Part shown: in pieces, positions 1,507 through 11,902 of the stretch
Numbering within the stretch: the stretch's first letter is position 1
How the letters are laid out: each line of letters starts with the position of its first letter
NCBI RefSeq assembly: GCF_030382115.1
Contig: NZ_JAUDRJ010000003.1
Coordinates: 661,423 to 689,775 of the forward strand
Source: Nostoc sp. GT001
GTDB taxonomy: Bacteria > Cyanobacteriota > Cyanobacteriia > Cyanobacteriales > Nostocaceae
DNA length: 28,353 nucleotides
Direction: 5' to 3'
Translations under genes and position numbers: made by a program
Notes under the pieces: generated by a model
Database searches by the model: none
The model's input: only the letters and a program-made list of their open reading frames with translations
Told to the model about the DNA's origin: nothing

Positions 1507-3270
1507 ATTGCAATTTAATAAAATCCCTATTAGGGATTGAAACAATTCGAGTGCATCGGATACGATAATTTGTGCCATATATTGCAATTTAATAAAATCC
1601 CTATTAGGGATTGAAACAGTCATTAGCTGATCCTCTTGTAAATAAAGGAGTATTGCAATTTAATAAAATCCCTATTAGGGATTGAAACTTTTACAACGTG
1701 ATACAGACTTTGTGATACGTGAAATTGCAATTTAATAAAATCCCTATTAGGGATTGAAACGCTGAGGAGAACGCAAGTAGACAAGCGCTATCAAGAATCA
1801 GATTGCAATTTAATAAAATCCCTATTAGGGATTGAAACCATTCACCCAGCATCGTACTACAAGTTCCTGAACAATTGCAATTTAATAAAATCCCTATTAG
1901 GGATTGAAACAGCGAAGTCAAGCAGAACGGGATGCTAAACAGTAATTGCAATTTAATAAAATCCCTATTAGGGATTGAAACAATTTAGTAGGAATCCTTA
2001 CACGCTTACCACTACCATTGCAATTTAATAAAATCCCTATTAGGGATTGAAACCTAGAAGCTCTTTTCCTTTCTGGTATTGCCCCCCCTGAATTGCAATT
2101 TAATAAAATCCCTATTAGGGATTGAAACGCTGTAACTATGGAGCTAATCTGCTTCGACCGCATATTGCAATTTAATAAAATCCCTATTAGGGATTGAAAC
2201 TCCCTGGCAATCTTTGATTCTCAAGTTAACGTAGATTGCAATTTAATAAAATCCCTATTAGGGATTGAAACAAAGCATTGAAAGCTGGACGTAATGAGAG
2301 CATTAAATTGCAATTTAATAAAATCCCTATTAGGGATTGAAACGAGAGTAAAGACCGCTTAGTAAACTTCAAACGATATTGCAATTTAATAAAATCCCTA
2401 TTAGGGATTGAAACCCTAGAGACGTTACCATTGCACTTATATCAGTGATTGCAATTTAATAAAATCCCTATTAGGGATTGAAACGGATAAGGCAATTACT
2501 AGTCAGACTGGCCAGATTTATTGCAATTTAATAAAATCCCTATTAGGGATTGAAACTTCTCAAATAAATTCCCCTTCGATATTTTTGGAATTGCAATTTA
2601 ATAAAATCCCTATTAGGGATTGAAACAAAATTCACTTAAATTAACTAAATAAATTATCCCTCCATTGCAATTTAATAAAATCCCTATTAGGGATTGAAAC
2701 AATTAACGAGCAAGCGCTTGCCGGAGCAACAGAGATTGCAATTTAATAAAATCCCTATTAGGGATTGAAACTTGGTCATCGTCAAGGTAAAAATCTCTAT
2801 CCTCTCATTGCAATTTAATAAAATCCCTATTAGGGATTGAAACACCTTGATAACTACCAGCCGCCCAAGCCCGGCATTGCAATTTAATAAAATCCCTATT
2901 AGGGATTGAAACTACTTATATATAGTAACAAATCTAAGAATCTTTTATTGCAATTTAATAAAATCCCTATTAGGGATTGAAACTTATAGCAGGCAACAGC
3001 CACCTTGGGCAAAACAAATTGCAATTTAATAAAATCCCTATTAGGGATTGAAACTTAGTTGCTTTCCTCCTTTAGGAAAGGTGAATGATTGCAATTTAAT
3101 AAAATCCCTATTAGGGATTGAAACGCCTAATTCGTATTCTCTAAAGGGGTATGGAGATTGATTGCAATTTAATAAAATCCCTATTAGGGATTGAAACTAT
3201 CAACTTGCCCTAATCGGCGTGTTGATGCAATCATTGCAATTTAATAAAATCCCTATTGTGGTATTCAAGC
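1507..3270 (+). CRISPR. CRISPR array, 24 intact repeats plus one degenerate repeat, 24 spacers
   Basis: Identical 37-nt repeats start at 1507, 1581, 1652, 1724, 1802, 1874, 1945, 2017, 2092, 2164, 2235, 2307, 2378, 2448, 2520, 2590, 2664, 2735, 2807, 2876, 2947, 3018, 3088 and 3161. A 25th at 3233 matches the first 25 bases and then decays. The 24 spacers are 32-41 nt and all different. Each repeat carries a palindrome AATCCCTA-T-TAGGGATT, a likely Cas6 hairpin, and ends in ATTGAAAC, the usual 8-nt 5' crRNA handle. That and the decayed right-hand repeat indicate left-to-right transcription. No cas gene is present, so the type is not determined; repeats of this kind in Nostocales often belong to type I-D or type III systems (general knowledge). 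Open frames at 1691-1951 and 1918-2163 on the other strand are translations of the repeats. Confidence 0.99.
3233..3270 (+). repeat. Degenerate terminal CRISPR repeat
   Basis: The first 25 bases (3233-3257) match the consensus exactly. The rest reads TGTGGTATTCAAGC where the consensus has TAGGGATTGAAAC, which is several substitutions and one extra base, so the hairpin and the crRNA handle are destroyed. Decay of the last repeat is typical of the leader-distal end. Confidence 0.85.
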
Positions 3271-3328: not shown

Positions 3329-4384
3329 TTAAAGCATTACCAAACTACCTTCTGCTTCTTCCTCTAGTTCATAACCATTAGCCAATTTTTCAATTGCTTG
3401 GTCAATCATTGCCAAACCCTGATCTACTCTTTCAACTAAACTTAGCTGTCCTCGGAGTTCGGCAGCACCAACAAAACCCTTAGCATACCAAGTCATGTGC
3501 TTACGGGCTTGACGTACACCGCGATCGCCTTTATATTCCCACAAGGCTTGTAAATGATCTCTTGCACATTCCAAACGCTGAATTGGGGTTGGTGATGGTA
3601 ATATCTCCCCTGTTTTCAGAAAATGATCGATTTCTCCCACCAAAAACGGATAACCCAAAGTCCCACGGGAACACATGACGCCATCAGCGCCAGTTTGCTC
3701 TAAACATTTAACTGCCGCTTCAACGGAAAAAATATCTCCGTTCCCAATCACTGGGATAGAAAGCACTTCTTTTACACGGGTAATCCATTCCCAACGGGCA
3801 TTACCATTGTACCCTTGGGCGCGGGTGCGTCCATGTACCGTAATCATTTTTGCCCCAGCATCTTCCATCCGCTTGGCAAAGTCGAGAATAGTAATTTCGT
3901 TGTCATTCCAGCCAATACGAGTTTTTACTGTCACAGGAACATCAACAGCTTTTACCACTTCCCGCACAATTGCTTCTGCTACTTCTGGTTGTCGCAACAA
4001 CGAAGAACCACCACCATTTTTAGTGATTTTATTAACCGGACAACCCATATTAATATCAACAGTATCAGCACCTTCGGCAACTGCCTTTATAGCTGCTTCT
4101 GCCAGGAAATCTGGACGGCAATCAAATAGTTGAATGCTAATTGGGCGTTCATTTGGATCTACCTCCATGATTTTGGGTAACTGCTTGACATAATGCAACC
4201 CCGTAGCATTAACCATTTCGGTATACATCATCGAATCTGGCGCATAGCGACGCACGAGACGGCGAAACACCATATCTGTCACTCCAGATAGAGGCGACTG
4301 GAGAACCCGACTTTTTACCTCAAAGGAGCCAATCTTTAAGGGTTGGGAGAGTCTAGCTTGAAGAATAGGAGAGATGGAAATCAT
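3329..4384 (-). CDS. dusB: tRNA-dihydrouridine synthase (DusB-like)
   Basis: FMN enzyme that reduces uridine to dihydrouridine in the D-loop of tRNAs. The 351 residues form a TIM-barrel catalytic domain with a helical C-terminus, the normal family size. Seen: the N-terminal SPLSGVTD flavin-binding region, YTEMV, NMGCPVNKITKNGGGSSLL with the proton-donor Cys115, VKTRIG (Lys154), the HGRTRAQGY segment around His184, and the phosphate-binding GNGDIF at 215-220. The start ATG is placed shortly before the conserved N-terminal motif. The subfamily letter is a best guess; Dus identity is secure. It ends about 60 bp from the CRISPR terminal repeat and points toward it. Open frames on the other strand at 3675-4133 and 3815-4129 are shadows. 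Confidence 0.93.
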   Translation of the reverse strand: MISISPILQARLSQPLKIGSFEVKSRVLQSPLSGVTDMVFRRLVRRYAPDSMMYTEMVNATGLHYVKQLPKIMEVDPNERPISIQLFDCRPDFLAEAAIKAVAEGADTVDINMGCPVNKITKNGGGSSLLRQPEVAEAIVREVVKAVDVPVTVKTRIGWNDNEITILDFAKRMEDAGAKMITVHGRTRAQGYNGNARWEWITRVKEVLSIPVIGNGDIFSVEAAVKCLEQTGADGVMCSRGTLGYPFLVGEIDHFLKTGEILPSPTPIQRLECARDHLQALWEYKGDRGVRQARKHMTWYAKGFVGAAELRGQLSLVERVDQGLAMIDQAIEKLANGYELEEEAEGSLVML

Positions 4385-5525: not shown

Positions 5526-6383
5526 TTAGCCGTGAGTTGCACCTTGAGGAGGACGCGAGACAACTTTTTTAGCTAAACCCAAAGTCTGCAACACTAAGAT
5601 ACTCCACCAAGTAACATCAATTTCCCACCAAGACAACCCAGATTTCGCCATGTGGGGATAAGTATGATGGTTGTTGTGCCAGCCTTCTCCATAAGTGACG
5701 ATGGATACCCACCAAAGATTACGAGCGCCATCATTGGCATCAAAGGTGCGATAACCCCACAGGTGTGATGCTGAGTTCACAAACCAGGTTGAATGCCAAA
5801 GTAAGACACATCTGAGAAACACTCCGTAGAATACAAAAGGCCATCCTCCTAATGCATATAGGAGCAGTGCGAAGGGTATTTGCAATAGCAAGAAGTAGCG
5901 ATCTAGCCAACAATAAAAGGGTTGTCTGGCTAAATCAGGGGCATATTTTTTATAGGTGTCATAGTCAAAAAATTCTGGACGTGGGTAAAAAATCCACAAT
6001 ATATGGCTCCACCAAAATCCTCTTTGAGCAGAATAGGGATCTAAATTGATATCTTCTGTGTGGGCGTGATGCTGGCGGTGTCCACCTACCCAAAAAATTG
6101 GCCCCCCCTGCAAAGCCAGCGCTCCAATGAGGGCGATCGCATACTCTAACCACTTAGGAACCTGAAAACTTTTATGGCTCAGTAGTCGATGATATCCCAG
6201 GCAAATACCAATACTCCCGAATAACCAGTGGAGAAACACTAGCAAACCTAATGCTGGCCAGGAGAAAAACCAAGGAGCCAGAAGTGCTAAAGCATGAAAT
6301 GTAGCAAAAAATACTACATTTGTCCAACTGAGTTGAGGTGACTTGCCTCTCTCAGGAGCGAACGCCCCAAAATTTGCGGTCAT
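5526..6383 (-). CDS. desC: Acyl-lipid delta-9 desaturase
   Basis: Membrane di-iron enzyme that puts the first double bond into acyl chains of membrane glycerolipids, using ferredoxin as electron donor in cyanobacteria. The three histidine boxes are HRLLSH (65-70), HRQHHAH (102-108) and HNNHH (236-240), counted from the chosen start. Hydrophobic segments lie between them. I start at the ATG ending at 6383, which gives 285 residues, because AGGA sits 6 bases before it and the protein then begins MTANFGAFAP; an in-frame extension to 6455 adds 24 unremarkable residues. DesC1 (sn-1) and DesC2 (sn-2) types cannot be told apart by eye. It is divergent from a TetR-type gene, with palindromes in the shared region, which suggests repression or lipid sensing. 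Confidence 0.93.
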   Translation of the reverse strand: MTANFGAFAPERGKSPQLSWTNVVFFATFHALALLAPWFFSWPALGLLVFLHWLFGSIGICLGYHRLLSHKSFQVPKWLEYAIALIGALALQGGPIFWVGGHRQHHAHTEDINLDPYSAQRGFWWSHILWIFYPRPEFFDYDTYKKYAPDLARQPFYCWLDRYFLLLQIPFALLLYALGGWPFVFYGVFLRCVLLWHSTWFVNSASHLWGYRTFDANDGARNLWWVSIVTYGEGWHNNHHTYPHMAKSGLSWWEIDVTWWSILVLQTLGLAKKVVSRPPQGATHG

Positions 6384-6484
6384 AAAAATTCCTGTTGATG
6401 GATGATGCAGTGATTTACTTTTTATTGGGCATAATCCCACTAAGGATTTATCCACCCTCTCACTAGTTAGTTACAGTAGAGTAA

Positions 6485-6501
6485 AGCAAGTATCACTTAC
6501 A
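6485..6501. promoter_or_regulatory. Candidate TetR operator 1 (imperfect)
   Basis: AGCAAGTATCACTTACA matches the perfect palindrome at 6533-6549 in 13 of 17 positions and keeps the half-site order CAAGT...CACTT. It lies in the desC-tetR divergent region, about 100 bp upstream of the desC start. Function is inferred from position and similarity. Confidence 0.5.
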
Positions 6502-6532
6502 TTTGTTATGCTAGCAGAACTCTGATACCCCC

Positions 6533-6549
6533 TGCAAGTGCCACTTGCA
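6533..6549. promoter_or_regulatory. Candidate TetR operator 2 (perfect 17-bp palindrome)
   Basis: TGCAAGTG-C-CACTTGCA is a perfect palindrome ending 7 bases before the chosen tetR ATG, where a Shine-Dalgarno sequence would lie; none is obvious. Its centre is 48 bp from that of the related site at 6485-6501. Auto-regulation by the adjacent TetR protein and co-regulation of desC is the simplest reading. Confidence 0.6.
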
Positions 6550-6556
6550 TTTTTCT

Positions 6557-7786
6557 ATGTCATCTCAACTGATTTCCACTCGTCAACGCCTGATTCAAGC
6601 TGCACTTGAGTTGTTTTCGGCTCAGGGAGTTAGCGCTACCACAACCCGCCAAATTGCTGAAAAAGCCGAAGTCAACGAAGTGACTCTATTTCGGAATTTT
6701 GGCAATAAACATGGGCTGCTTTTGGCTGTGTTGGAAGAGTCCGCAGCCTTCAAGGATTTAGGTGAGTCGCTGGTGCGACGGGCAACACCTCCCGGCAATG
6801 TTTACCAAGCTCTTAAAGATTATGCAAGTGACACTTTACATACATTAGAACGAGTGCCAGAGTTTGTCCGATCTGTGGTAGGTGAAGCCGACCAATTCCC
6901 GGCAGAAAATCGCCGCGCACTAGGCAGGGGAGTAACAGAGGCAAACCGTTATGTAGCTCAGTATTTAGCTACTGTAATCCAGCAAGGACACTTAAATACC
7001 TACTTACCAGCAGAAAAATTAGCCAGTTTGCTGAATGGGATGATCTTGGGATATGCCGTAATTGAGTTCACTAGCGAATTTCACGAACTTTGGGAGGATC
7101 GGGATGATTTTCTGGAAAATTTGGTGGAGTTGTTTTTACATGGAGCCATGTCATCTTCAGCAGAATTAGCAACAAACTCCTTACAAGGAGGGTTCACCAC
7201 CACAGAAGTCGCTGATTTACCAGCTAGTTTAGTTCACGAAATTCTGCAACAAGCCAGGAAATTTGGAGTACGAGATTATGCTTTGGCTTATGTGTTATTT
7301 GGGGCTGGATTATCTGCCACAGAAATAATTAGCTTGGAGCGATCGCACCAAATCTACGATACTCAAGGGCACTTCCTGCAAATCACAATTCCCGGATTTG
7401 TCCGTCAAGTGCCTGTGAATCAATGGATTTTGGGCAAACGCTACGGTTCTTTTACCAATAATCCCCTAATCAAATGGCTGAAAAGTCGTAAAGATACTCA
7501 AACAGCGATGTTTCTGAATGAAACAGGTACACCCATCTCAGAATCAGAACTTGAGACACGTTGGCAAGCATGGAGTGAAGGATTGTTAACTCCCCAAGGA
7601 CAAACGCCAGCGATCGCCCAGGCACAACAAACCTGGCGCGTAGAAATGTTAATGCGAGGGATTACCTTGGAAAACCTGAGTATCTTTACAGCTTGCGATC
7701 GCGCCCAGTTACAACCCTATGTCCGCCGAGCCAAAGAAAAAGCTGCCCTAGAGCAAGCCACCCGTTTGGATCATAAACCAGGGTAG
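6557..7786 (+). CDS. TetR-family regulator fused to a tyrosine-recombinase-like C-terminal domain
   Basis: About 409 residues, roughly twice the usual TetR length of about 200. Residues 8-55 form a TetR helix-turn-helix (TTRQIAEKAEVNEVTLFRNF), followed by a helical ligand domain to about 195. From about 215 the chain resembles the catalytic domain of tyrosine recombinases: RDYALAYVLFGAGLSATEI (box I form, with Ser where the catalytic Arg is expected), a beta pair ending VRQVPV, MFLNETGTPISESEL, and a C-terminal helix set with a Tyr in LQPYVRRAK. Most catalytic residues seem to be lost, so a DNA-binding or oligomerisation role is likelier than recombination. An in-frame TTG at 6545 lies inside the operator-like palindrome; the ATG at 6557 is preferred. 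It is divergent from desC. The ligand is unknown. Confidence 0.85.
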   Translation: MSSQLISTRQRLIQAALELFSAQGVSATTTRQIAEKAEVNEVTLFRNFGNKHGLLLAVLEESAAFKDLGESLVRRATPPGNVYQALKDYASDTLHTLERVPEFVRSVVGEADQFPAENRRALGRGVTEANRYVAQYLATVIQQGHLNTYLPAEKLASLLNGMILGYAVIEFTSEFHELWEDRDDFLENLVELFLHGAMSSSAELATNSLQGGFTTTEVADLPASLVHEILQQARKFGVRDYALAYVLFGAGLSATEIISLERSHQIYDTQGHFLQITIPGFVRQVPVNQWILGKRYGSFTNNPLIKWLKSRKDTQTAMFLNETGTPISESELETRWQAWSEGLLTPQGQTPAIAQAQQTWRVEMLMRGITLENLSIFTACDRAQLQPYVRRAKEKAALEQATRLDHKPG

Positions 7787-8959: not shown

Positions 8960-9730
8960 ATGTCTCGAGCTAATATTACAAGTTCTCAGGTTGTATCTGC
9001 TAGTAAATATGTCTTTCAAGTTTATGTTCAATGGGGATTATCTAATATTAAAAAAGGTGCTTGGGGAAGTTTAGCTATTCAGTTCATAGTATTGTTACTT
9101 TTGACAAGTGTCTTGTTTAATGGAATAAACAAATCTGTAACTGATATTCAAATAAAAATAAGCGAAATTCAAAAATTAATAGAAGATAGCGCTAAGGCTG
9201 ATCCATCAAAAACTAATCCAAAGCCCTCACCTAAAGAAACATTAAGGCCAAATATTCCAACTCAACAACCTTTAGCAGTAAATCCCTCACCTCAAGTAAC
9301 TTCAAAGCAAGAAGTTCAAGACCAATTAATTCCGAAGCTAGAGGAGCTAGAAACAAAGTATAAATTTACTAAAGAACTTAACTTCAGTATTATTAATGCT
9401 TCTAATTTTGCTTCCCCGAAAGCAGATGACGATTTTAAAAAAGCATTATTGAAAAGATTTACTGAGATTTGTGTTGTTCCTAACTCTTCTTCAATCGGAT
9501 GGAAAATGTCTAAAACCAGAATCTATTTCTTAAAAAAACGAAGTATTAATGCTGCTTTATCTATTGCAAGCTGGATGCCAGGATCTCAGGATGTTATTGA
9601 TTATGAGCATCAATTGAAAAATCCTGTTAAATATCCAGATTTGCCTAATGGTGATGGGCGTATACAAATCAATAAATCTACAGCAGATATAGTCATTGTT
9701 TTAGGTAATGATTATTCTAAAATAAATTAG
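8960..9730 (+). CDS. Membrane-anchored protein with LytR_C-like C-terminal domain
   Basis: 256 residues. An N-terminal polar part (NITSSQV at 5-11) is followed by one transmembrane helix (about 36-54), a short coiled region, a Pro/Ser/Lys-rich linker (about 80-118), and a folded domain at about 138-253. That domain has the order I associate with LytR_C: a first strand NFSIINAS, a helix, RIYFLKKRSINAALSIASWMPG, and a final strand ADIVIVLGNDY. LytR_C usually follows a LytR-CpsA-Psr catalytic domain, which is absent here, so a cell-envelope role is only inferred. Its TAG stop is formed by the edge of a MITE-like repeat (9728-9798). No HIP1 site is present in the gene, unlike most neighbours. Confidence 0.65.
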   Translation: MSRANITSSQVVSASKYVFQVYVQWGLSNIKKGAWGSLAIQFIVLLLLTSVLFNGINKSVTDIQIKISEIQKLIEDSAKADPSKTNPKPSPKETLRPNIPTQQPLAVNPSPQVTSKQEVQDQLIPKLEELETKYKFTKELNFSIINASNFASPKADDDFKKALLKRFTEICVVPNSSSIGWKMSKTRIYFLKKRSINAALSIASWMPGSQDVIDYEHQLKNPVKYPDLPNGDGRIQINKSTADIVIVLGNDYSKIN

Positions 9731-9918: not shown

Positions 9919-11865
9919 TCAATTCAATGGCTCCATAATGACTCTTAAACCTTTACTAGAAAGTGTTTTGAGCATTTCTTTAGCATTATATTCACTACTA
10001 AATACTCCTGCTTGCATAACTCTTTGACCTTGCCAAACTGTGGGAAACGCACCAGGAGCAAGCGATCGCACTAAATCTCGATCCTTATCAGTTGCAAGTT
10101 GCACTACTAAGCGATACCGCACACCAGATTGTGTTGCAGAGTTACCACTATAAGGAATACTTGCAGAACTTGTTTGCAGATTGCCAGTATTAACAATGGG
10201 GATATTGGGATTGGGAAGTGGTAAAAGTTCTGAAGCACTAGGAGCAGCAGTTTCTAGTATTGGTAATGGCTGCTGTGTTTGATTCCTCATACTTGAAACT
10301 GGTGGCTGTACAACTGAATTGGATGGGGACTCAGGGGCAGTAAACTCAATGGTATTAGGATCGATCCGCACGTAATTTAACTGTGGTGTATCAGGTGGCT
10401 GTGCATTAATTGGTATTTGTCTACCTGACAAGCTGCTAGGAGTAGGAAATCCGGCGACTCTAGAAGTAGGTGGTTGTTTGGATATAGGCGGGGAAGGCGG
10501 CACATTATTGGCAGGCATTAATGACAGCTGTTGACTATTTAATTGTGTAGAAACAGGATTATTTGCTGAAATGCTGTTGCTGGTTTGCCCGTTAGTAGTT
10601 TCAGAGACTTCGGGAGATGAGAAGGTGATTTCCCCAGTTGGTGGTATTTCTCGTAATACGTTGTTGGGAGCGGGTTGAGAATTTTGGGTTGCTAGTGCTG
10701 TTGTACCATTAATATCTACATTGCCAGTGATGCGATCGCTCACAAGGTTGTTACCAGCAGCAGAAATCACCTGTTTAGCAGCGCTGGCGTTAATGTCGTG
10801 GCGGGCATTATTTTGAAATGTATTACCCCCAGGTTCGGATGCACTACCCAAATCTGGCATTGCTTGAGCGATCGCAACTAAACCATCTTCTTTATTATCT
10901 TGAATAGAATTATTCCGCAAAATCGGGCGGGCATTTGCTTGTACGATAATTCCCGATCTATTGTTCTGAATTTGATTACCTATAAGTATAGGAGCAGCAT
11001 TTTGGGCAATATTAATCCCAAAACCCGTTTGGTGAAAGACATTCTCTTTGACTTGGGGACTGGAATTACCGGCAATTGTGATGCCATTGGCTCCATTGCG
11101 ATCGAAGTAATTCTTACTAATGGTGGGTGCAGCATTACCACTGACAGAAATGCCATCTTGGGTACTACCAGTAAAAGTATTTTCTGCGACTACCGGATTG
11201 CTAGATTCAATCCATAAACCGTAACCACGAGGATTAGGGTTCGTCACCGTCACTCCAGTAAGCAAGGCTTGATTTGCCCCTACAATTGTGACATTTTGAC
11301 CTAAAAAGCTCCGACTCAGGTAATCACCGCCTCCTTGAATAATAATGTCTTTACCTTGATTGCTGGGGTTGCCTTGAATTGAAATACCCGGTTTCAGTAT
11401 TAAGGGAAATTCCTCTCCTGTCTCGGCGCTATAAGTGCTTGTGGAAAGCATAATTAGAGTATTGGCGTTAGCTAATCGCAGCGCTTGGGTAATCGTCTGT
11501 ACAGGAGTGGATTCGCTGCCATTGCCTGCGTTGTCATCTCCAACACTAGGATTGACAAATAACACATTAGCCTGAGAAGGTGTTTTCTCATTCAGAGGCG
11601 CTGAATCTGGTGTCGATGGAATCTGAGCGATACCTTCTCTACGAGAGGCTGCGCGAACGGTGGGCTTTCCTACGGAACGCTCCGCGAACGCTAACGCACT
11701 ATCCAGGCTTGTACCCAGAAACGTTATACTTGCCGCCCCCATACTTACAGTAAAAGATAATACTGAAAAACTAAAAAATAAAAGCCTTGCTGATTTCAGA
11801 AACTTCAGCTTTGCAAACAGAACATCTACTCTCCGGTACTCAGGAAACACACGAGGGAGCATCAT
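9919..11865 (-). CDS. Secreted DUF1565/parallel beta-helix protein with C-terminal SPOR-like domain
   Basis: About 648 residues. After a basic N-terminus there is a hydrophobic signal segment (about 27-50), then a DUF1565-like start (LFVNPSVGDDNAGNG with STPVQTITQAL), followed by right-handed beta-helix repeats in which NxF/GI/N patterns recur about every 22 residues (about 200-330). A long Pro/Ser/Gln-rich linker follows, then a SPOR-like domain (YRLVVQLATD ... VMQAGVFSSEYNAKEML). Likely exported and associated with the cell wall or surface; the substrate is unknown. I choose the ATG at 11865 because GGAG lies 11 bases upstream; a GTG at 11874 is too close to it. A dispersed repeat (11635-11697) forms about 22 residues just after the signal segment. 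Confidence 0.85.
   Translation of the reverse strand: MMLPRVFPEYRRVDVLFAKLKFLKSARLLFFSFSVLSFTVSMGAASITFLGTSLDSALAFAERSVGKPTVRAASRREGIAQIPSTPDSAPLNEKTPSQANVLFVNPSVGDDNAGNGSESTPVQTITQALRLANANTLIMLSTSTYSAETGEEFPLILKPGISIQGNPSNQGKDIIIQGGGDYLSRSFLGQNVTIVGANQALLTGVTVTNPNPRGYGLWIESSNPVVAENTFTGSTQDGISVSGNAAPTISKNYFDRNGANGITIAGNSSPQVKENVFHQTGFGINIAQNAAPILIGNQIQNNRSGIIVQANARPILRNNSIQDNKEDGLVAIAQAMPDLGSASEPGGNTFQNNARHDINASAAKQVISAAGNNLVSDRITGNVDINGTTALATQNSQPAPNNVLREIPPTGEITFSSPEVSETTNGQTSNSISANNPVSTQLNSQQLSLMPANNVPPSPPISKQPPTSRVAGFPTPSSLSGRQIPINAQPPDTPQLNYVRIDPNTIEFTAPESPSNSVVQPPVSSMRNQTQQPLPILETAAPSASELLPLPNPNIPIVNTGNLQTSSASIPYSGNSATQSGVRYRLVVQLATDKDRDLVRSLAPGAFPTVWQGQRVMQAGVFSSEYNAKEMLKTLSSKGLRVIMEPLN
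11635..11697. repeat. Palindromic repeat inserted in frame in the beta-helix gene
   Basis: G/C-rich and self-complementary in parts (TCTCTACGAGA; GCGCGAACG versus CGCGAACGC). The module TTCTCTACGAGAGGCT recurs with one change at 16937-16952. Read on the minus strand it encodes ALAFAERSVGKP plus about ten further residues, so the repeat has become coding without breaking the frame. Confidence 0.75.
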
Positions 11866-11902
11866 ATCTAACACGACTCCTTGTAAGTAATCATAGATTC
11901 TT

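Follow-up and report, generated by a model that had tools for sequence, protein, structure and literature searches.

In the 28,353-nucleotide stretch of Nostoc sp. GT001 analyzed here (contig NZ_JAUDRJ010000003.1, positions 661,423 to 689,775; hereafter, the window), a TetR regulator whose C-terminal half has the predicted fold of a tyrosine-recombinase catalytic domain is encoded next to, and divergently from, a fatty acid desaturase gene, with two palindromic predicted operators at the desaturase promoter. The fused architecture, the gene pair and the paired palindromes are conserved among cyanobacteria, while the catalytic set of the recombinase fold has been lost. From these features, we infer DNA binding, repression, a ligand and a coupling role for the regulator, and we consider it reasonably probable that it is a dedicated local repressor of the divergent delta-9 desaturase, with the recombinase domain serving as an accessory module that couples dimers and/or grips DNA. 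A lipid-gene switch seems to have taken up a former DNA-cutting enzyme as one of its parts. The analysis thereby provides a candidate regulator, with its operators and likely single target, for a membrane-lipid desaturase in about half of the sampled cyanobacterial genomes, and desaturase control becomes directly testable.

The regulator and its recombinase-fold domain

A sequence-only reading of the window had proposed, at 6485..7786, a TetR helix-turn-helix with a normal body of about 200 residues, followed by a degenerate tyrosine-recombinase-like domain. The stop of that frame (7786) stands, whereas its start does not: ATG 6557 is likelier, as aligned relatives begin there, and position 6485 coincides only by chance with the first base of predicted operator O1, described below. 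The revised layout, all on the plus strand, is as follows.

6557..7786, plus: regulator gene, one open frame of 409 residues (TetR part, linker and apparently dead tyrosine-recombinase domain)
6590..6730, plus: TetR helix-turn-helix, residues 12-58 (PF00440 TetR_N, E 1.5e-14, 54 bits vs a cut-off of 24)
6737..7156, plus: TetR ligand/dimer body, residues 61-200 (TetR_C_7, E 1.6e-5, above cut-off)
7157..7204, plus: variable, disordered linker, residues 201-216 (predicted local distance difference test score below 50 at 202-214; conservation 0.22)
7205..7783, plus: apparently dead tyrosine-recombinase catalytic domain, residues 217-409 (profile match and predicted fold)
7313..7315, plus: Ser253, at the catalytic Arg I position (alignment)
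7394..7501, plus: basic block of the recombinase domain, residues 280-315 (mean column identity 0.747 vs 0.775 in the helix-turn-helix)
7718..7720, plus: Tyr388, at the position of the catalytic Tyr nucleophile (alignment)

The two Pfam matches bear out the TetR part and, judged by its sequence, the first 200 residues are an ordinary TetR regulator. The body is predicted to be all-helical, and the solved folds nearest to the model include Bacillus FadR (PDB 3whc). No Pfam match to a core-binding domain was found in the regulator, in which a linker of some 16 residues lies between the TetR body and the catalytic domain. The recombinase-domain profile has a single match in the own genome.

For the C-terminal half, the motif order on which the earlier reading had relied (GAGLSATEI at 249, VRQVPV from 282 and LQPY ending at Tyr388) goes beyond chance. 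A profile of 35 C-terminal domains matched Pyrococcus abyssi XerA across the catalytic domain with E 5.8e-11, and the predicted structure is that of a tyrosine-recombinase catalytic domain rather than of an extended TetR ligand domain, the alternative raised at the time. In the Nostoc regulator itself, PF00589 (Phage_integrase) stays below the Pfam cut-off (E 1.3e-3, and 2.5e-4 for the C-terminal half alone), and Pfam assigns this family to a number of close homologues of the regulator.

The R-K-H-R-H/W-Y catalytic set is incomplete in the Nostoc protein (S253, A354, Q357 and A379, with Y388 retained and the Lys place not confidently mapped). Both the Ser that replaces the first catalytic Arg and the lack of a clear HxxR box had been noticed from the letters alone; indeed, no such box was found in this protein (A354, Q357). 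The degeneracy extends to the relatives, for which catalytic columns were counted in 226 distinct sequences (274 with duplicates). The Arg I column contains Ser in 209 and Arg in two, meaning that Arg was lost in 224, while the Arg II column contains Gln in 204 and Arg in 14, followed by Gln in 140 and His in 72 at the next position. At the His II position, Ala (137), Glu (29), Thr (18) and others are found, and the ten commonest residues, which account for 223 of the 226 sequences, do not include His. The H/W column holds Gly or Ala in 214 and the Tyr column retains Tyr in 218. Relics are scattered among relatives, for example GLR in L061 and L076, and RHTW in L059, L063 and L075, which is the pattern expected from the decay of an active recombinase. 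The C-terminal domain thus appears to descend from an active tyrosine recombinase that lost cleavage. A length-limited profile search for stand-alone domains returned 140 proteins, the best 120 of which, as listed, were 38-93% identical to the Nostoc domain. As many of these are on short contigs or have names that include TetR or partial, they were read as fusion pieces, without being checked singly; no close active recombinase was found among these 120 of the 140 matches.

Among the 35 domains, column identity is 0.636 for the whole domain, with the 280-315 block approaching the helix-turn-helix. The isoelectric point (pI) of this block is 11.1 in the Nostoc protein, and that of the domain is at least 8.5 in 19 of the 35 members, going down to 5.7 in some. 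Selection was estimated as the ratio of nonsynonymous to synonymous substitution rates (dN/dS) between the window gene and same-length orthologues (86 pairs, of which those with dS above 0.2 were kept). The median was 0.037 for the helix-turn-helix (65 pairs), 0.026 for the TetR body (55 pairs) and 0.105 for the recombinase domain (82 pairs). By this sequence measure, the recombinase domain is under purifying selection, weaker than that on the rest of the regulator. Frames through the domain are free of stops in nearly all of the printed matches, with G410 and G198 as exceptions.

The divergent desaturase and its paired predicted operators

The adjacency of a lipid desaturase gene, already pointed out in the sequence-only reading together with a search for the same architecture and neighbors in other cyanobacteria, proved far stronger than the letters alone could reveal. 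A homologue of the window desaturase lies 59-670 base pairs (bp) from the regulator, as measured between match ends, in all 157 loci considered (132 distinct regulator proteins), being divergent and upstream in 156 of them and downstream on the same strand in L060. The elements of this gene and its promoter in the window are given below.

5526..6455, minus: fatty acid desaturase gene (PF00487, E 1.9e-19; open reading frame from GTG 6455, with ATG 6383 as the likelier start)
6485..6501, strandless: predicted operator O1 (AGCAAGTATCACTTACA), covering the predicted desaturase transcription start
6508..6513, minus: predicted desaturase -10 (TAGCAT; extended, TGCTAGCAT), from the promoter fit
6532..6537, minus: predicted desaturase -35 (TTGCAG), from the promoter fit
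6533..6549, strandless: predicted operator O2 (TGCAAGTGCCACTTGCA), overlying the predicted desaturase -35

The operator survey covered 55 loci, namely the window, L031-L077 and 7 of 80 named loci. In 51 of these, two copies of TGCAAGTnnnACTTGCA, each matched at 11 or more of 14 positions, occur at a spacing of 42-60 bp, where dinucleotide shuffles predict 0.005 loci with such a pair. The spacing is 46 bp in 19 loci, 47 in 17 and 48 in five, and the gap between O1 and O2 is 25-43 bp, falling within 29-31 bp in 41 of the 51. In L060, L068 and L074, the pair adjoins the desaturase and is distant from the regulator start, and the gene order regulator-operators-desaturase in L060 and L178 makes the desaturase the likely controlled gene.

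Read in the direction of the desaturase, all 51 pairs fit a promoter in which TAnnnT follows, after 17 or 18 bp, a TTGCAn (50 loci) or TTGCTn (one locus) at the O2 end, with an extended TG before the -10 in 43 and O1 starting 5-6 bp past the -10 in 40. As the fit takes the best of four spacings per locus, shuffled spacers were treated alike and gave 5.7 of 51. With O2 over the -35 and O1 at the transcription start, this layout is suited to repression. This fit, at 6508-6513, replaced an earlier candidate -10 to the left of O1 (TACTGT). Between O1 and O2, a third element is also conserved; its initial interpretation as a possible site for the recombinase domain was dropped, as its other strand reads as the extended -10. 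An element like GTTACAGTAGAG is seen just outside O1 in many relatives (about 6462-6473 in the window), within the predicted desaturase 5' leader.

To place the regulator across the class, 388 genomes from 159 genera were drawn evenly, and all class-wide scans are assumed to share this sample. The whole regulator is matched (E at most 1e-40) in 191 genomes and 79 genera, and the recombinase-domain profile (E at most 1e-15) in 189 genomes and 77 genera. The difference between these sets is accounted for by G121 and G305, which carry TetR-only genes, G358, where the gene is cut by a contig end, and G424, which has a partial domain match and no regulator match at the cut-off. In the own genus, 50 of 53 genomes have a full-length match; of the others, G042 has a partial match (residues 84-409), G027 has two pieces on two contigs and G034, which is 72% complete, has none. 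Named carriers of the fusion include Nostoc, Anabaena, Calothrix, Nodularia, Argonema and Leptolyngbya, and the named matches examined are cyanobacterial. A strict operator pair was found in 146 of the 388 genomes, with none for the reversed control in the rows shown. The pair accompanies 145 of 191 regulator matches and is found in one of the 197 genomes without a match (Fisher p 5e-64, not corrected for kinship). For the domain, the corresponding numbers are 142 of 189 and four of 199, the four being G121, G305 and G205, with TetR-only genes, and the truncated G358.

The His boxes of the desaturase (HRLLSH, HRQHH and HNNHH) correspond to the delta-9 motifs HR-x3-H, HR-x-HH and HN-x-HH, as given in PMC2593844, and the protein is 47% identical to the product of a desC1-like gene in the des cluster of its own genome. 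DesC1 and DesC2 are sn-1 and sn-2 delta-9 desaturases, respectively (PMC4390868 and PMC2593844), and the window desaturase is presumed, from its sequence, to be a DesC2-like delta-9 acyl-lipid desaturase, that is, a second delta-9 type besides the desC1-like gene. Elsewhere, a short frame of 268 residues (G000 C3:2757314-2757904) contains two desaturase-family matches in direct succession, which cover profile positions 3-112 and 147-236.

Proposed mechanism, natural variants and alternatives

In the mechanism we favor, dimers of the TetR part would bind the two palindromes bracketing the desaturase core promoter and, sitting on O2 (-35) and O1 (+1), would block RNA polymerase, with a fatty-acyl ligand probably releasing the repressor, by analogy with FadR-type TetR bodies and MadR. 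The former recombinase domain, flexibly tethered, would couple the O1 and O2 dimers and/or grip the DNA between them and so sharpen repression; two dimers on O1 and O2 would bring four recombinase folds together. A flexible tether would agree with the tolerated spacing of 42-60 bp, which argues against a contact that is rigid and phased.

Natural variants (TetR-only, one-operator and partly degenerate catalytic sites) make it possible to read by experiment what the added domain does. In all, 11 TetR-only orthologues were found in divergent orientation to this desaturase, in all eight genomes of the family of G205 and in G121, G305 and G311; a TetR gene of G188 was excluded from this count, having no desaturase beside it. 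The G205 family is taken as Thermostichaceae, since its member L187 gives 65-94% matches to named Thermostichus and Synechococcus proteins. A tree of the TetR part (48 taxa, midpoint-rooted since the outgroup was not monophyletic, with long branches being a worry) nests G121/G305 (support 100) and G311 (95) within fused clades, indicating that the domain was lost there. The Thermostichaceae form falls among fused forms with weak inner nodes (45, 59 and 76), and a 31-taxon clade containing it, and excluding other fused forms, has a support of 93; these sequences lean towards domain loss in this family as well, but not firmly. One good operator is found in seven of the 11 TetR-only loci and two in the other four, as compared to a single operator in one of the 55 fused loci. 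A single operator thus tracks the absence of the domain more often than not, although this link is loose and involves few independent events. In G205 (L177 3198-3874), the TetR-only frame is split in two beside a retained operator pair, which may reflect decay or a sequencing error.

Several points weigh against the proposed mechanism and should be considered. The recombinase domain has a dN/dS about fourfold higher than the TetR body. The pairs in four TetR-only loci imply that the domain is not required for a paired-operator switch, only one good operator is present in the fused locus L058, and 47 of the 189 domain genomes lack a strict pair, with some having looser pairs (e.g., G385/L062). 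The single operator core has 3 + 2 matches in the own genome, as opposed to 4 + 5 for the reversed control, such that specificity lies in the pair and its position and not in a single core; apart from this promoter, the core is seen once, inside a coding frame (G000 C1:124694), and this third match was treated as chance. The spacing of about 47 bp may follow from the -35 to +1 geometry alone and, ranging over 42-60 bp, is not helix-phased. Finally, no clear conserved motif was found in the right half of the O1-O2 spacer among the 51 pairs, which argues against sequence-specific DNA binding by the recombinase domain.

A possible but clearly less probable alternative is that the recombinase-fold domain itself binds DNA as a clamp, either nonspecifically or between O1 and O2, with the dimers being uncoupled. 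The strongly basic and conserved 280-315 block and the basic character of the domain in 19 of 35 members agree with such a role, as does an O1-O2 gap that is mostly close to the Xer core site, which is 28 bp long. The dead-recombinase repressor MrpR, moreover, binds DNA (PMC10516654). Nonetheless, the right half of the spacer lacks a clear motif, the core-binding half of a recombinase clamp is absent and the pI of the domain goes as low as 5.7 in some members. We regard as unlikely a frozen synapse, in which four dead domains would form the cyclic tetramer that formerly served strand exchange and would wrap or loop the promoter of the desaturase until a lipid signal opens it; here, TetR would replace the DNA reading of the core-binding domain and the tetramer would act as an allosteric lock. 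About as doubtful is a C-terminal sensor or protein-protein module (e.g., for acyl carrier protein, a lipid enzyme or RNA polymerase), with the recombinase ancestry being incidental. Here, it can be argued that the most conserved block tested differs from the old active site, that a dead fold is free to adopt a new partner and that the domain was lost in some lineages retaining the switch, yet the gene neighborhood suggests no partner beyond the desaturase, and the domain goes together, albeit imperfectly, with paired operators, which suggests that it acts at DNA. It is quite improbable that the domain is a functionless passenger kept by fusion to a useful TetR, as could be read from at least two losses in nested lineages and the weaker constraint, given the nearly stop-free frames (G410 and G198 aside), a dN/dS of about 0.1 and a block nearly as conserved as the helix-turn-helix across diverse members. 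Low-efficiency recombination by the domain can practically be dismissed, as the retained Tyr and the few members with Arg I or Arg II stand against the near-complete loss of Arg I, the rarity of His at the His II position and the Gly or Ala in the H/W column.

Remaining window features and comparison with known systems

The other window neighbors of the regulator are steady only among its close relatives in Nostoc; matches beyond these are scattered and weaker. A 651-residue protein with DUF1565 and right-handed beta-helix repeats (9919-11874, minus) is kept close to the regulator in many Nostoc relatives, and L058 likewise has a 40% match. For a 256-residue protein with no Pfam match (8960-9730, plus), one of the loci listed, L078, has a relative close to the regulator. 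At 1507-3197, an array of clustered regularly interspaced short palindromic repeats (CRISPR) contains 24 Rfam CRISPR-DR5 repeats and is flanked by genes for alanine dehydrogenase (105-1205) and dihydrouridine synthase (3329-4384, minus).

Among TetR regulators of desaturase or fatty-acid genes, neither MadR nor DesT nor Bacillus FadR is known to carry a recombinase domain. The likeness to these three lies in the Nostoc TetR body, modeled with a FadR-like fold. TetR-family control of a desaturase by MadR is reported to be relieved by saturated acyl-CoA (PMC8872791). With XerA, XerC and XerD, the regulator shares the catalytic-domain fold and motif order, but not the core-binding domain, the catalytic His/Arg set or a known recombination site. 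In eukaryotes, the recombinase fold was reused as a non-cutting DNA module in animal regulators whose dead recombinase domains derive from Cryptons and in yeast Ndc10, which differ from the Nostoc regulator in having no TetR part and unrelated targets.

The earlier reading knew of no described example of such a protein. This holds for a TetR fusion beside a lipid gene, as the searches made of the open-licence literature showed neither a described TetR-recombinase fusion nor a cyanobacterial desaturase described as controlled by a TetR regulator, but not for a dead-recombinase repressor as such, already known in phages from MrpR (PMC10516654). MrpR (YopR of the Bacillus prophage SPbeta) and SroF (phi3T) are the closest known systems (PDB 8a0a, 8bpz, 8bj6, 9rgl and 9rd5). 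MrpR has its own core-binding domain and no TetR part and regulates phage lysogeny, whereas in the Nostoc regulator, TetR replaces the core-binding domain and should perform the specific DNA reading, and the neighbor is a chromosomal lipid gene. What appears to be new is the TetR fusion of a dead recombinase and its placement beside a lipid gene, a rare case in which the enzyme fold of a mobile element would have been exapted into a chromosomal regulator through fusion.
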